A DNA stretch of 38,872 nt from a virus: positions 1 to 38,872 of the IMG/VR virus record IMGVR_UViG_3300028802_000004; one strand, written 5' to 3'. The notes under the pieces are model-generated. The model had not been told where the DNA came from and did not search any database. It saw only the letters and a list, made by a program, of their open reading frames with translations. This document shows positions 24,979 through 29,967 of this stretch, piece by piece. The position numbers and the translations under genes were made by a program. Position 1 is the stretch's first letter; each line of letters opens with the position of its first letter.

Positions 24979-25230
24979 ATGGACGAGACGCCCCGGACGG
25001 GCTTCAACTACCTGCTGATGATCGAGGCGCTCGCCGCGGTGGCGGTGATCCTGGTCGGGGTGGTCTGGTTCGCGTTCAAGCTCGAGAGCCGGGTCTCGGT
25101 GCTCGAGGAGGAGCGGCACCGCGACGCGCAGAGTCGGGATGCGCGGCAACGCGACCAGCGTATCGAGCGTATCGAGCAGGCGATCGAAGAGCAGAGCAAG
25201 ACCCTGAAGCAGCTCGCACCGAGGAGATGA
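24979..25230 (+). CDS. Small membrane protein with coiled-coil tail, spanin- or holin-like candidate, 83 aa
   Basis: Residues about 9-31 (FNYLLMIEALAAVAVILVGV) form one membrane segment; residues 33-80 are a charged coiled coil (SRVSVLEEERHRDAQSRDAR). One N-terminal anchor followed by a coiled coil is the layout of Rz-type inner-membrane spanins, though 83 residues is short for Rz. It may instead be a small holin or tail-ejection membrane helper. Lies between two large virion genes, start 3 bp after a stop with weak ribosome binding site, suggesting coupling. Confidence 0.6.
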   Translation: MDETPRTGFNYLLMIEALAAVAVILVGVVWFAFKLESRVSVLEEERHRDAQSRDARQRDQRIERIEQAIEEQSKTLKQLAPRR

Positions 25231-25231
25231 C

Positions 25232-27949
25232 ATGGCAAGGCTGACCGACGAGGAACGCAGGCTGCTGGAGGCCGAACGCAAGCAGGGCATGACCCACTCG
25301 CTGTTGCAGGGCCAGGACGCGCCATTTGGCATGCTGAAAATTGGCAAGAACCAGTACGACCTGGGACGGCCATCGGACTGGGAGCGTGGCTTCCAGCTCA
25401 AGGGTAAAGGGCTGCCGGCGGACACCTTGTTCCAGCTTGGCAAGTGGGCGCTGCCGCCAGGGTTTGAGCACTTCCTGCCGCAGGCGAACATGCCCGGCGG
25501 TGCGGCTGATCTACGCCAGCGCGGCGTCGAGCAGGGCACCATTCCAGGCGATCCGGCCCAGTACGGGATGCAGGACCGCAGCTCGGGGGTGGCCACCGGC
25601 AGCCCCAACGCCGGCGAGCAGCTCGGCGGGTTAGTGGCCGACCTGGTGCTGCAGCCGGCCGGCATGAAGGCGGCCCAGCTGGGCAAGGCCGGGCTGCTGA
25701 CGATCGCACCGCAGGCGCGCCAGATGGGCGGGCGCGCGGCGGCCGGGATCAAGGATCTGATGACCCTCCCCGATAACCTGGCGCTGGCTGGGGCCGGCGG
25801 CCCGGCGTCGTTCCCAGCGCCGCGGCAGAACGACTGGGTGACGATGATGGCTGCGGCGGCCAAGGGCGGCGGTGGCGGCAAACCACCCAAACCACCCAAA
25901 CCACCGCCACCGCCGAAGCAGACGATCGGCAATATGTGGGACGCTGTGCCCAACGAGGCGACCGCGATGCCGATGGCCCGCGCCGGGGCGCACCTGAAGC
26001 AGGATGCGACCGGCAAGTACATCGGCGGGCCGGACTGGGTCAGTTGGCCTGGGCAGCTGGGATCGATGCGCATGGGCATGGACGACATGCTCACGCGCGG
26101 GCTCGAAAACGCGAACTGGTACGACCGCGCCCGGTCCGGGATCATGGACGTGACCGGCTACTCGCCGAATATGGCCCCGAACAGCAAGGAAGCGACCATG
26201 GCGCAGCTGTTTGCGCGCGGCGCCGCGCCGTATTCGATCAAGTCGACACCGATCGACGAGACCAACTCATTCCTGAAGCAGCACAACGCCAAGATGCTCA
26301 CCGGCCAGGACCGCCAGGCGCGGATGGGGTTCCAGATGAACATGGTCGCGCCGGCCTACACCAGACTGCCGGATGGCACCTACGAGATCACGCCAGGCAA
26401 TATCGGGCTGGGGCCGAAGATCGGTCCCTATGCGATGGCCAAGGACCCGACGCTGCCATTCGACTGGAAGACCGCGAACGACATCCGGCACGGTCGGGCC
26501 TACGGCTACCGGATGCCCAACGGGGACATCTTCGATCGCGGTTTTTCCGACGCCGAGCACGGGTTCCTGCATGGCGAGAACCTGCTGATCTCCGACCGCG
26601 CGCGGCAGAACGCGCCGACGATCCCGGCCGGTAGGGCATCAACCGGCGAGAACATCCCGGGCGGGCTGGACTGGAATGTGCCCAGGACGCAGGCGGCGAT
26701 CTGGGCGACCCAGGCCTATGACGTGGCCAACGCCAAGAACCTGAAAGCGATCGCCGACAAGACCGCCGACCTAGAGCGGTGGAATGCTGGTGATAAGACC
26801 GGACTGAAGAAAAAGCCGGTAGTGCCGGAGCGGTTGACCCATGAAGAAATGTGGGCCGACGCCAGCGCCGGCGTCGACGACGCGATCATGCGCAACACTG
26901 CATTTGCCAACTGGGAAGTGACCCCGGGAGAGAACACCCCACACTTCATGGGCCTGTCGAAGGACAAGGCGCTCAACGACGCTTATAGCAAGGCTCGGAT
27001 CGAGCAAGCCGCGGTGCGCGACCCGTACTACCAGTCGCTGCAACAGTTTGTGCGTCCAACCGAGAGGGCCACCAGCCGCGGTTGGTGGGATCCTGGCATG
27101 GGCCTGCCGACCCAGGAGAATTACCAGGGCATCACGCGGATGTTGGCCGATATCGAAGCGGGAGGGGTGATCAACCCCACCACCCAGCGCGGGATGAACA
27201 CAGTGGAGTGGTTGCGCTCGGCGATGAACGCGCAGTCAGGCGGCGGCACGCACTTCCTGGTCCCTTCCACCAAGAGCGCTGACATCTCAACCCAGAAGGG
27301 CTCGCTGCTCGACATTCCAGATGTATCGGGTGCGCCGGGGGCGATGGAGGGCCATATTGAGGAGTTGCGCAAGGTGATCCCCGAGCTGCGCAATACCGGG
27401 CTGAATGTGGTTGACGATCGCAATGGACGCTTCTCGGTTGGGCGGTTCGACCAGGACTGGACCGGCGAGGATGTACAGAACAAGGTCAATTCAGTGCTCG
27501 GCAACTACAAGGCGCTGACCAACACCCCAGCAACATGGAACAGCGACTTTGTCGGGGTGCCCTGGGGCAAGGACGCGGCCGGCAACCCCACCCAGGGCAC
27601 CGGGGTGGTGACCAAAGAGATGGTCAAGGTGTTGACCGGCAAGTCGAAGAACCCCCAGATGTTGCCGATCCCGGACCTGGCGTCGCGGCTGGACGTGCAC
27701 GGCGGAACCAACGCCGAGATCGCCGCGGCCAACGCTGCCGATCGCGCCTTCGCGGCGCAGAACCCGCAGTATCAGCCGGCGGACGATCTACTGAAGCTGC
27801 GCGACATCGTCGGCCAGCAGGGTGGCTGGCAGAAGCTGCTCGAGTACGTCAAGAAGAACGGCTACCAGGGTCTGCCGGCGGTGTTTGGTCCGAGTCTGCT
27901 GGACACTTCGGGGCTGTGGCAACAGCAGCAGGAGGATCGTGGATGGTGA
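25232..27949 (+). CDS. Very large virion protein, 905 aa
   Basis: GAGGAG lies 6 bp before ATG 25232. Begins MARLTDEERRLLEAERKQGM. Contains a Lys/Pro linker (KPPKPPKPPPPPK near residue 215), then a long soluble part with GFQMNMVAPAYTRLPDGTYE, PAYTRLP and MSGxGGTHFLVPSTKSADIS-like segments. Such giant last structural genes in podoviruses often encode ejected proteins or polyvalent enzymes; I could not recognise a domain. Its last 101 bp overlap the opposite-strand gene 27849-28121. No lysozyme motif (E-x8-D/C-x5-T) is evident. Confidence 0.65.
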   Translation: MARLTDEERRLLEAERKQGMTHSLLQGQDAPFGMLKIGKNQYDLGRPSDWERGFQLKGKGLPADTLFQLGKWALPPGFEHFLPQANMPGGAADLRQRGVEQGTIPGDPAQYGMQDRSSGVATGSPNAGEQLGGLVADLVLQPAGMKAAQLGKAGLLTIAPQARQMGGRAAAGIKDLMTLPDNLALAGAGGPASFPAPRQNDWVTMMAAAAKGGGGGKPPKPPKPPPPPKQTIGNMWDAVPNEATAMPMARAGAHLKQDATGKYIGGPDWVSWPGQLGSMRMGMDDMLTRGLENANWYDRARSGIMDVTGYSPNMAPNSKEATMAQLFARGAAPYSIKSTPIDETNSFLKQHNAKMLTGQDRQARMGFQMNMVAPAYTRLPDGTYEITPGNIGLGPKIGPYAMAKDPTLPFDWKTANDIRHGRAYGYRMPNGDIFDRGFSDAEHGFLHGENLLISDRARQNAPTIPAGRASTGENIPGGLDWNVPRTQAAIWATQAYDVANAKNLKAIADKTADLERWNAGDKTGLKKKPVVPERLTHEEMWADASAGVDDAIMRNTAFANWEVTPGENTPHFMGLSKDKALNDAYSKARIEQAAVRDPYYQSLQQFVRPTERATSRGWWDPGMGLPTQENYQGITRMLADIEAGGVINPTTQRGMNTVEWLRSAMNAQSGGGTHFLVPSTKSADISTQKGSLLDIPDVSGAPGAMEGHIEELRKVIPELRNTGLNVVDDRNGRFSVGRFDQDWTGEDVQNKVNSVLGNYKALTNTPATWNSDFVGVPWGKDAAGNPTQGTGVVTKEMVKVLTGKSKNPQMLPIPDLASRLDVHGGTNAEIAAANAADRAFAAQNPQYQPADDLLKLRDIVGQQGGWQKLLEYVKKNGYQGLPAVFGPSLLDTSGLWQQQQEDRGW

Positions 27950-28121
27950 TATCGCCCTTCCTGCGACCGGGTTGCCAGTCGCCGATGACGGGGCCGCCGA
28001 GGCGGGGTACGTCGTAACCGGGTGGCCGCGGTCCGCTTGGCTGGGCGGTGCGCTGATAGAGCGTGTGCAGCATGCCGGCGTAGCGGCGCTCTTCGTCGGT
28101 GGGGTGGGTCTTTTTAGGCAT
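27849..28121 (-). CDS. Small hypothetical protein, antisense-overlapping with end of 905-aa gene, 90 aa
   Basis: Last gene of the leftward block. Residues 1-60 look like a real protein (MPKKTHPTDEERRYAGMLHT; GYDVPRLGGPVIGDWQPGRR), with AGGAG 6 bp before the ATG at 28121. Residues about 57-90 (Pro/Ala/Asp-rich) lie antisense to the 3' end of the 905-residue gene. That tail may exist only because the opposite gene keeps the frame open. There is no other gene in 27950-28120. Function unknown. Confidence 0.55.
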   Translation of the reverse strand: MPKKTHPTDEERRYAGMLHTLYQRTAQPSGPRPPGYDVPRLGGPVIGDWQPGRRKGDITIHDPPAAVATAPKCPADSDQTPPADPGSRSS

Positions 28122-28123
28122 CG

Positions 28124-28141
28124 CAGTCTCCTCTAGGAGGT
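28124..28141. promoter_or_regulatory. Overlapping divergent ribosome binding sites
   Basis: The segment CTCCTCTAGGAGG serves both strands: AGGAGG lies 4 bp before the plus-strand ATG at 28145, and the complement AGGAG lies 6 bp before the minus-strand ATG at 28121. CTCCT and AGGAG form an inverted repeat, so the two messages would each carry a ribosome site inside a small stem. Confidence 0.7.
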
Positions 28142-28142
28142 G

Positions 28143-28658
28143 TCATGGAAAGTCTGTTGTCGTTGCTGGTAACGGTGATCGTGCTGGGCCTGGTGTGCTA
28201 TCTGCTGTACTGGCTGATCGGGCAAATTCCACTGCCGGCGCCGTTTGCGGTGGTGGCGAAGGTGCTGCTGGCGCTGTTTGTGGTGCTGCTGCTGTTGAGC
28301 CTGTTGTTTGGTTGGGCGCCGATCCCGCGGCTACATATGCGTTGACCCAGGCGATGATGTCCCCGGCGCGCCAGAGTAGTGGCTTGCCGGGCCGCGCCGG
28401 GTGCGGGAAGCCGGGCTTCTTGCCGACCCGCTCGAGCGTGCGCGGGGCGTAGTGCAGGTAGTCGGCGACCGCTACCTTGTCCCACAACAGCTCCTCGGGC
28501 CGGCAGGCGAGCTCGAGTGGCAGCTTGAGCTGGCCGTCGATCGCGTGTTGATAGTCGCAGCCGGCGGCGAACGCATCGCGCAGTGAGCGGCGGGTAAATT
28601 GCGGCTCTTCGCGGTCCTTGACCCAGTCGTCGAAGGCTTCCCTTTGCGCTGCGGTCAT
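28143..28658 (-). CDS. DNA-binding winged-helix protein (AlpA/excisionase-like) with antisense-encoded tail, 171 aa
   Basis: Residues about 56-108 contain ELLWDKVAVADYLHYAPRTL and PGKPLLWRAGDIIAWVNA, the layout of AlpA/MerR-type winged helix domains that read a DNA site and act as regulators or excisionase-like factors. ATG 28658 has AGGAG 5 bp upstream and overlaps the previous stop as ATGA. From residue about 105 on the protein is Ala/Pro/Thr-rich, and its codons switch to A-ending ones because the opposite strand encodes the two-span membrane protein. The tail is probably disordered. Confidence 0.75.
   Translation of the reverse strand: MTAAQREAFDDWVKDREEPQFTRRSLRDAFAAGCDYQHAIDGQLKLPLELACRPEELLWDKVAVADYLHYAPRTLERVGKKPGFPHPARPGKPLLWRAGDIIAWVNAYVAAGSAPNQTTGSTAAAPQTAPAAPSPPPQTAPAVEFARSASTADSTPGPARSPLPATTTDFP
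28145..28345 (+). CDS. Two-span small membrane protein, holin candidate, 66 aa
   Basis: Residues 4-25 (LLSLLVTVIVLGLVCYLLYW) and 36-57 (AVVAKVLLALFVVLLLLSLL) are membrane segments, joined by IGQIPLPAPF. The 'IPLPAPF-xxVAxVxL' linker is a pattern I recall from small phage and bacterial membrane proteins. AGGAGG site 4 bp upstream. It follows the late operon on the same strand, so late expression is expected, which fits a holin. The whole gene is antisense to the tail of the HTH gene 28143-28658. Confidence 0.7.
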   Translation: MESLLSLLVTVIVLGLVCYLLYWLIGQIPLPAPFAVVAKVLLALFVVLLLLSLLFGWAPIPRLHMR

Positions 28659-28990
28659 GTCGGCTCCTTGGGTTGGGCGAGGGCAGCGCGAGCAGCTTCC
28701 CATGCGAGTGGCTTGCGCTTGAAGTATTCCGCCTTTACCTCGGAAAGATCGGGTGCTGGAGGATATCCAACAATAATGTCCTTCATTGCCTTGAGTTTCA
28801 CAAGCTCATCGATCGCCGCACGCAGCCGCGCCACCTCCGCATCGCGTGCGGCGAGTGCGTCCTGCAATTCAGCGACTTGCTTGGTATCGCTGCGCTTCAG
28901 ATGCCCGATCTCCGCATCGCGTGCGGCGAGTTGCCGCTCCAGGGTTTGGACTACCCTGGTTAGTTCGATGACATCGTTGGCATTGCTCAT
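28655..28990 (-). CDS. Coiled-coil protein, 111 aa
   Basis: Residues 5-70 form a heptad-rich helix with an internal repeat: LAARDAEIGHLKR and LAARDAEVARLRA, about 26 residues apart, so the helix grew by duplication. The C-terminal part (YPPAPDLSEVKAEYFKRKPL) is short and folded-like. It overlaps both neighbours as ATGA. Similar small phage coiled-coil proteins exist without known function. Confidence 0.7.
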   Translation of the reverse strand: MSNANDVIELTRVVQTLERQLAARDAEIGHLKRSDTKQVAELQDALAARDAEVARLRAAIDELVKLKAMKDIIVGYPPAPDLSEVKAEYFKRKPLAWEAARAALAQPKEPT

Positions 28991-29322
28991 CGGGTCACCT
29001 GTATCAACCCCTCGCGCCAGAGGCGCAGCCAGGTACGGTCCATGGCGCGTCTGAACATCTGCTGGCGGTCGGCGCGTTCGCTGGTATAGATATTAGTCGG
29101 GTCGCGGCCGGTGCCCTGGTCAAGCCAGCGATGACAGGCGGCGCAGAGGTGGGCATGAAAGCAGTCATGCGCCTTTAGTGCACCACCCTTGCCGTGGATC
29201 GACATGTTGCTATGCGCCGGCTCGCAGGGCCCGATCGCGCCGCAGTTGCCGCAGACCGCGTCCAGGCTGTGGGCCAGATCGAGCAGGCGGCGGTTGCGGT
29301 ACTGCGGGTACTGATCGATCAT
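28987..29322 (-). CDS. YbcO-like (DUF1364) HNH-type nuclease
   Basis: 111 residues. Zinc-site residues Cys24, Cys27, Cys33 and Cys60-x2-Cys63-His64 surround AHSNMSIHGKGGALKAHDCF. A C-terminal MDRTWLRLWREGLI matches the end of the lambdoid YbcO/DUF1364 family, which comprises small His-Me-finger nucleases near NinG-type recombination genes. Its company of SSB and an annealing protein supports a role in recombination or DNA processing. ATGA overlaps at both ends. Confidence 0.75.
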   Translation of the reverse strand: MIDQYPQYRNRRLLDLAHSLDAVCGNCGAIGPCEPAHSNMSIHGKGGALKAHDCFHAHLCAACHRWLDQGTGRDPTNIYTSERADRQQMFRRAMDRTWLRLWREGLIQVTR

Positions 29323-29663
29323 GCCCCATACCCCCTTCGCTCGGCGCGTTTGGTGGCCTCCTGGGTGCGCCAGACGTCAGCGCGGATGGAAGTGACCTGG
29401 AGCTCCCAGCGCAGCGTCTCAGCGCGCTCCATGGCCTCCCTGAGGCCCTCCAGGAGCTCCAGGTAGTCCGGGTGGCAGCGCGCGTCGCGCTCCTGGGCGG
29501 CGGAGCTGGTGGCGCCGTGGGCCTCGGCCGCTTTCATGAGCATCGCCAATTTGCTCTTTTTGAACTCGTCCAGGTACGCCACCTGGGCTTTGGCTTTGGC
29601 GTACTGCGGCGCCAGCTCGCGCAGCTCGTGCATGCGCCGCTCGATCGCTTCATCGGAGGCCAT
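29319..29663 (-). CDS. Conserved phage helical protein, 114 aa
   Basis: Starts MASDEAIERRMHELRELAPQ at ATG 29663. The long helical segments YAKAKAQVAYLDEFKKSKLA and EGLREAMERAETLRWELQVT, with a motif 'AHPxYLELLEGLRExxExxExLRWEL', are recognisable from an uncharacterised family seen in many phages. Upstream open frame (52 more codons) is shadow of the neighbour. Overlaps the preceding gene by 14 bp and the YbcO-like gene by ATGA. Possibly a recombination accessory protein by company only. Confidence 0.7.
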   Translation of the reverse strand: MASDEAIERRMHELRELAPQYAKAKAQVAYLDEFKKSKLAMLMKAAEAHGATSSAAQERDARCHPDYLELLEGLREAMERAETLRWELQVTSIRADVWRTQEATKRAERRGYGA

Positions 29664-29967
29664 CGGCTGCCTCGTGGGCCCATTCGGCGGCCTGATCGAA
29701 CGGCTGACCCTGGCCGGCGCGCAGCCGGGCGATCGCTTGCTGGCAGGCGACGTCACTCTCCAGCCCTTCCAGGCGCTCGGCCAGCGCCTCGTTTCTGGCC
29801 CGCAGCGCTGGGGCTTCAATGATCAGCAGCGCATCAGCCGAACCGTTACGGCCGATCACCGGCAGGAAGCATACGGTCTTGTTGCGCGCGCCGACAATGC
29901 GCCCGCCCTTGCCGCGCGGGTTGTGCAGCAAACGCCAGGGGCCTGCGGTATTGGTTTGTTCGTTCAT
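29650..29967 (-). CDS. Hypothetical protein, 105 aa
   Basis: Start ATG 29967 has AGGAG 7 bp upstream; the extra upstream ATG at 30000 is less likely. Residues 8-50 contain AGPWRLLHNPRGKGGRIVGA and NKTVCFLPVIG, a beta-rich start similar to short phage proteins that begin 'PWxxx...GxxIxxxxxxxIaxxx'. The second half is helical (ALRARNEALAERLEGLESDV) and probably a short coiled coil. It sits just downstream of SSB. Function unknown. Confidence 0.65.
   Translation of the reverse strand: MNEQTNTAGPWRLLHNPRGKGGRIVGARNKTVCFLPVIGRNGSADALLIIEAPALRARNEALAERLEGLESDVACQQAIARLRAGQGQPFDQAAEWAHEAADGLR

Follow-up and report, generated by a model that had tools for sequence, protein, structure and literature searches.

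Structure of the locus

The window analyzed here is the whole 38,872-base virus record IMGVR_UViG_3300028802_000004, which stems from a tailed phage. Its plus strand carries terminase, portal, capsid, and tail-fibre genes, and its minus strand carries an operon of early type that includes an SSB-like gene (by reading of the sequence). The late (plus) and early (minus) operons converge at about 28.1 kb, and scans for terminators and promoters at this junction gave nothing convincing. In the late operon, eight large plus-strand ORFs (202–905 aa, between 15809 and 27949) had no Pfam match, and none of the seven that were scanned against PHROGs matched.

The last gene of the late operon (28145–28345, plus strand) encodes a two-helix membrane protein of 66 aa with the sequence MESLLSLLVTVIVLGLVCYLLYWLIGQIPLPAPFAVVAKVLLALFVVLLLLSLLFGWAPIPRLHMR. 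Its ATG is immediately preceded by AGGAGGTGTC with the ribosome site AGGAGG. On the minus strand, positions 28143–28658 encode a predicted winged-helix DNA-binding protein (MerR/excisionase/Nu1-like) of 171 aa, in the following called the regulator. The minus ORF extends from 28143 to 28703 when the first ATG is used and then also encloses the plus ORF fully. Position 28658 is likely the true start, since AAGGAGCCGAC-ATG is present there and this site is also found before the homologs in the related loci L014 and L015.

The whole plus ORF lies opposite the final 66 codons of the minus gene, in antisense orientation (the overlap comprises regulator codons 105/106–171), and base 28145 is common to the minus stop codon TGA (28145–28143) and the plus ATG. 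This is the arrangement that a preliminary description of the locus had claimed. Plus codon position 1 is opposite minus position 1, plus position 2 is opposite minus position 3, and plus position 3 (wobble) is opposite minus position 2. The third positions of the minus gene are A in 11%, C in 51%, and G in 36% of codons 1–104 and A in 57% of codons 105–171, so the shift to A-ending codons from about codon 105 was also reproduced. Codons 106–171 and the stop (28143–28343, minus strand) form a lineage-specific C-terminal tail, which is rich in Pro, Ala, Ser, and Thr and is predicted to be disordered.

Directly downstream of the regulator gene follows a small minus-strand ORF of 90 aa (27849–28121), the start of which faces the start of the plus gene. 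Both starts are 23 bases apart on opposite strands and point away from each other (28121–28145). They share the near-palindromic block CTCCTCTAGGAGG (28128–28140), which contains the ribosome-binding site AGGAGG of the plus gene and also, read from the opposite strand, the site GAGGAG of the minus gene that follows. The two start codons come even closer in L014, where they overlap within the sequence CATG. A small minus ORF after the regulator was also present in L004, L014, and L015, always directly beside the plus gene start, yet its sequence is not conserved beyond a few residues. We considered the palindrome (CCTC-TAG-GAGG) as a hairpin acting as an RNA switch and rejected this, since its folding was no better than that of shuffled sequences. 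A palindrome is expected here because two facing starts share one ribosome-site block.

The membrane protein belongs to a widespread phage family

The AlphaFold2 model of the plus protein is a helical hairpin (helices 2–27 and 34–55, mean pLDDT 87), in agreement with the two membrane spans proposed before. A fold search of this hairpin among viral structures returned only non-specific two-helix matches (E > 1). In the phage collection, neither a nucleotide search with positions 27700–29700 nor tblastn with the plus protein gave a match, and a single weak short match was found in genome contigs.

Among viral contigs we found 35 loci of the family, which are characterized by the two-helix pattern and a QIPLPxPF loop. 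The window forms a clade with L002 and L003, in which the plus protein is identical, and with L004 (91% identity). Outside this clade, identity is 78% for L014, 77% for L015/L016, and down to 34% for others. The homologs occupy scattered positions: some are flanked by portal and scaffold genes, some precede the terminase gene, and some follow tail-fibre genes (gene names by reading of the sequence). Distant homologs have their own ribosome sites, and no regulator match was found opposite the more distant relatives within the flanks fetched. Both frames are open across the entire overlap in the window, L002, L003, and L004; the equivalent antisense frame (position 1 facing position 1) has 0 stops only in this clade and 2–9 stops elsewhere. 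Since distant homologs lack a regulator match and have these stops, the comparison indicates that the plus gene is an independent phage family, mostly without any regulator opposite.

The family can be loosely tied by sequence to the Thivi_2564 family membrane proteins (NCBIfam NF041949), which are also short and carry no assigned function in the libraries used. The alignment of the window protein covers almost the entire model; its score of 14.1 bits is far below the cut-off of 33 bits, which the distant relative L039 passes narrowly (33.3 bits).

The regulator and its counterparts in related loci

Residues 57–110 of the regulator are predicted with modest confidence to form a winged helix, closest to MerR, excisionase, and small-terminase domains. 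The pLDDT is about 66–74 over residues 61–110. The best PDB matches were RacA and packaging-motor domains (E 0.04–0.3), with a Foldseek probability of up to 0.99 and a best E of 0.04 for residues 57–110, and there was no significant sequence match to solved structures. PHROG matches included phrog_4996 (E = 2.8e-07) and weak ones to excisionase and small terminase. With tblastn of the minus protein against the phage collection, only a short 50% match to a Mannheimia phage was obtained. The predicted fold is like that of MerR/excisionase-like winged-helix proteins (RacA, BldC, RdfS, TorI) and of small-terminase DNA-binding domains, but the tail is without a counterpart there.

The regulator is represented by few independent lineages (about five distinct sequences). 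The preliminary description named truncated regulators in related phages that end near codon 105 as a finding that would favor a by-product origin. Short regulators (88 aa) were indeed present in L014 and L015/L016 opposite a whole plus gene, but they are cut at plus codon 34/35 and not near codon 105, which leaves about half of the overlap. In L014 and L015 the frame has the same phase, and the TGA is created by the plus codons for Phe-Lys (TTC AAG). These regulators keep the winged helix and lack the N-terminal domain, and their tail sequences are unrelated to that of the window.

Selection acts on the plus frame

We determined dN/dS by the method of Nei and Gojobori and in a second test classed sites by their effect in both frames. 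Purifying selection on the plus frame was clear in comparison to L014 and L015, with dN/dS of 0.10 (window–L014), 0.16 (window–L015), and 0.06 (L014–L015), and values ranged from 0.06 to 0.18 across the more distant pairs. The substitutions in the plus gene between L014 and L015 numbered 11, 0, and 20 at codon positions 1, 2, and 3. The site classes gave dNN/dSN of 0.11–0.34 for the plus frame in more distant pairs. These values, together with the conserved family and the stops in the relatives' antisense frames, bear out the earlier view of the plus gene as the constrained partner.

For the minus frame, dNN/dNS was > 1 in every computable pair, and no NS change was seen between L014 and L015. 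This test has little power because plus position 2 doubles as the main minus synonymous site and is also the site that determines hydrophobicity of the plus protein. In the tail, 41 codons differed nonsynonymously and 1 synonymously between the window and L014, while dN/dS of the winged-helix part outside the overlap was 0.06–0.23. Judged from these sequences, the tail is not conserved between the window and L014/L015. The family-wide conservation of the plus protein and the loss of the minus tail in relatives are not due to chance. As a counterpoint to the priority of the plus gene, its constraint was hardly visible in the closest pair, window–L004, with few changes, a plus dN/dS of 0.48, and dNN/dSN of 0.83.

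Composition of the tail and wobble bases of the plus gene

As a null model, we used random synonymous spellings of the plus protein with the codon usage of the late genes of the window. The antisense frame was open in 18% of these spellings and is, therefore, unsurprising alone. Pro, Ala, Ser, and Thr made up 71% of the tail, while 54% was expected from the plus protein (P = 0.0007; 0.001 among open frames). Thus, the Ala/Pro-rich tail can be traced to the plus gene, as proposed, but it is not simply forced by it. Third positions of the minus codons are set by the plus protein, and first positions largely so. The second position is the free plus wobble base and separates Pro/Ala/Ser/Thr from Arg/Gly/Gln/Glu/Lys. 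The excess came from the plus wobble bases, which are unusually rich in purines. Leu and Val codons ending in C/T accounted for 0/29 in the window and 1/27 in L004 vs. 319/949 (34%) in late genes (Fisher, 9e-6). The same was seen for codons where no stop was at risk (0/25), and none of 485 sliding windows of the late genes was as low. L014 and L015, which have the same kind of convergent junction, showed no wobble skew. Few such NTY codons were also present in the distant family member L029 (4/28) and in one late gene (4/29), so codon use varies between genes.

In L004 an open antisense frame was expected in 0.3–0.5% of spellings, though its openness is mostly inherited. Ile48 is encoded there by the rare ATA, the sole Ile codon that avoids a minus stop before Met49. 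Synonymous divergence between the window and L004 was 0.13 in the plus gene (0.05 in codons 1–44), 0.26–0.27 in the rest of the minus gene, and 0.40–0.56 in neighboring genes. The difference between the plus gene and the rest of the regulator block had p = 0.09, and p = 0.006 was reached for the post hoc choice of codons 1–44. The block as a whole (28143–28658; 0.13–0.27) was less diverged than all compared neighbors, which suggests an exchange by recombination.

Origin of the overlap

The plus gene is very probably the older one, and the tail a by-product that arose when the regulator frame ran through it. An old, independently conserved membrane gene would have closed the late operon at the point where the two operons converge. 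In an ancestor of the window clade, the reading frame of a short winged-helix regulator would have been free of stops opposite this gene and would have continued through all of it to the TGA that overlaps the plus ATG. This extension would have provided the regulator with a 66-residue disordered Pro/Ala-rich tail, the composition of which comes mostly from the phase and from the leucine and valine richness of the plus protein. In a later step, plus wobbles may have been adjusted to purine-ending codons, which would preserve the open frame of the tail and leave few charged residues in it. We infer this order of events, together with translation of the tail. Tail gain is presumed over tail loss, a direction not rooted by a tree. 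L014 and L015 may carry a gene that was assembled in another way rather than the ancestral form, because the N-terminal domain of the regulator is also absent there.

Where coding DNA is Ala/Pro-rich, hydrophobic ORFs on the other strand are a frequent artifact. That the minus frame is the real gene and the plus ORF such a chance product is nevertheless extremely improbable: many phages carry a homolog without the regulator, these homologs have ribosome sites of their own and face stops on the other strand, and the plus frame is under strong purifying selection. We rejected this explanation as already refuted by the homologs and the plus dN/dS.

For the tail itself, there is a nearly even chance that the open frame is pure chance and the tail neutral baggage, or that translation of the regulator stops short of its end in vivo. 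The proportion of open spellings and the expected share of the tail composition agree with this, but it leaves the wobble skew unexplained, and, since no stop precedes 28143, full translation of the regulator necessarily includes the tail. Some selection may meanwhile act on the tail itself, since the purine-rich plus wobbles are the second positions of its codons, and the data are suggestive of weak selection on it. That both frames are selected now, with the by-product turned into a functional disordered tail constraining the plus wobbles, is possible but somewhat improbable. It would account for the near absence of C/T-ending Leu/Val codons in the window and L004, the lack of such a skew in L014/L015, the frame kept open in L004 with ATA at Ile48, and the low synonymous divergence of the plus gene. 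Against it stand the dNN/dNS values of the formal minus test, the lower divergence of the whole block as after recombination, with p = 0.09 for the plus gene within it, and the low NTY counts of L029 and one late gene. That selection on a new functional disordered tail has rewritten synonymous codons of the older membrane gene is rather doubtful.

Comparison to known antisense overlaps

Cases of antisense overprinting have been described for bacteria and viruses (PMC5810103, PMC7457138, PMC8227390), and the overlap is a clean but modest new example. The laoB gene of E. coli is likewise short and lies antisense to the gene of a CadC-like transcriptional regulator (PMC5810103). It is reported as a young gene that arose opposite the regulator, whereas here the short gene would be old and the regulator tail young; this comparison disregards phase. 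According to PMC4182739, selection on the mother gene automatically protects one antisense frame, in which positions 1 and 2 of the codons are exchanged and wobble is opposite wobble. The frame found here is different: the wobble of the mother gene coincides with position 2 of the codons in the other frame, and the tail should, therefore, drift quickly unless selected. The rapid divergence of the tail between clades agrees with this expectation, which also lends interest to the skew seen inside the clade.

For complete antisense overlaps it is usually difficult to tell which gene is the older one. Here, no, half, and full overlap coexist among relatives, which allows the older gene to be identified and the expectation for a by-product to be computed. 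In general, where an Ala/Pro-rich tail lies opposite a membrane gene, it needs comparison with the composition forced by the membrane protein (54% here) before it is called a domain.

Proposed holin function and transcriptional coupling

The plus gene had been regarded as a late holin. This is unsupported: holin profiles in Pfam, PHROG, and NCBIfam matched neither the window protein nor other family members, no endolysin was found, and the gene positions in the family are scattered. Coupling of the early regulator and the late gene by antisense transcription, also proposed before, is permitted by the gene order and otherwise unproven. Elsewhere in the window, an 83-aa ORF (24979–25230), which has a coiled coil and a single membrane span, weakly matched the Rz-like spanins of phrog_89 (E 6e-4).
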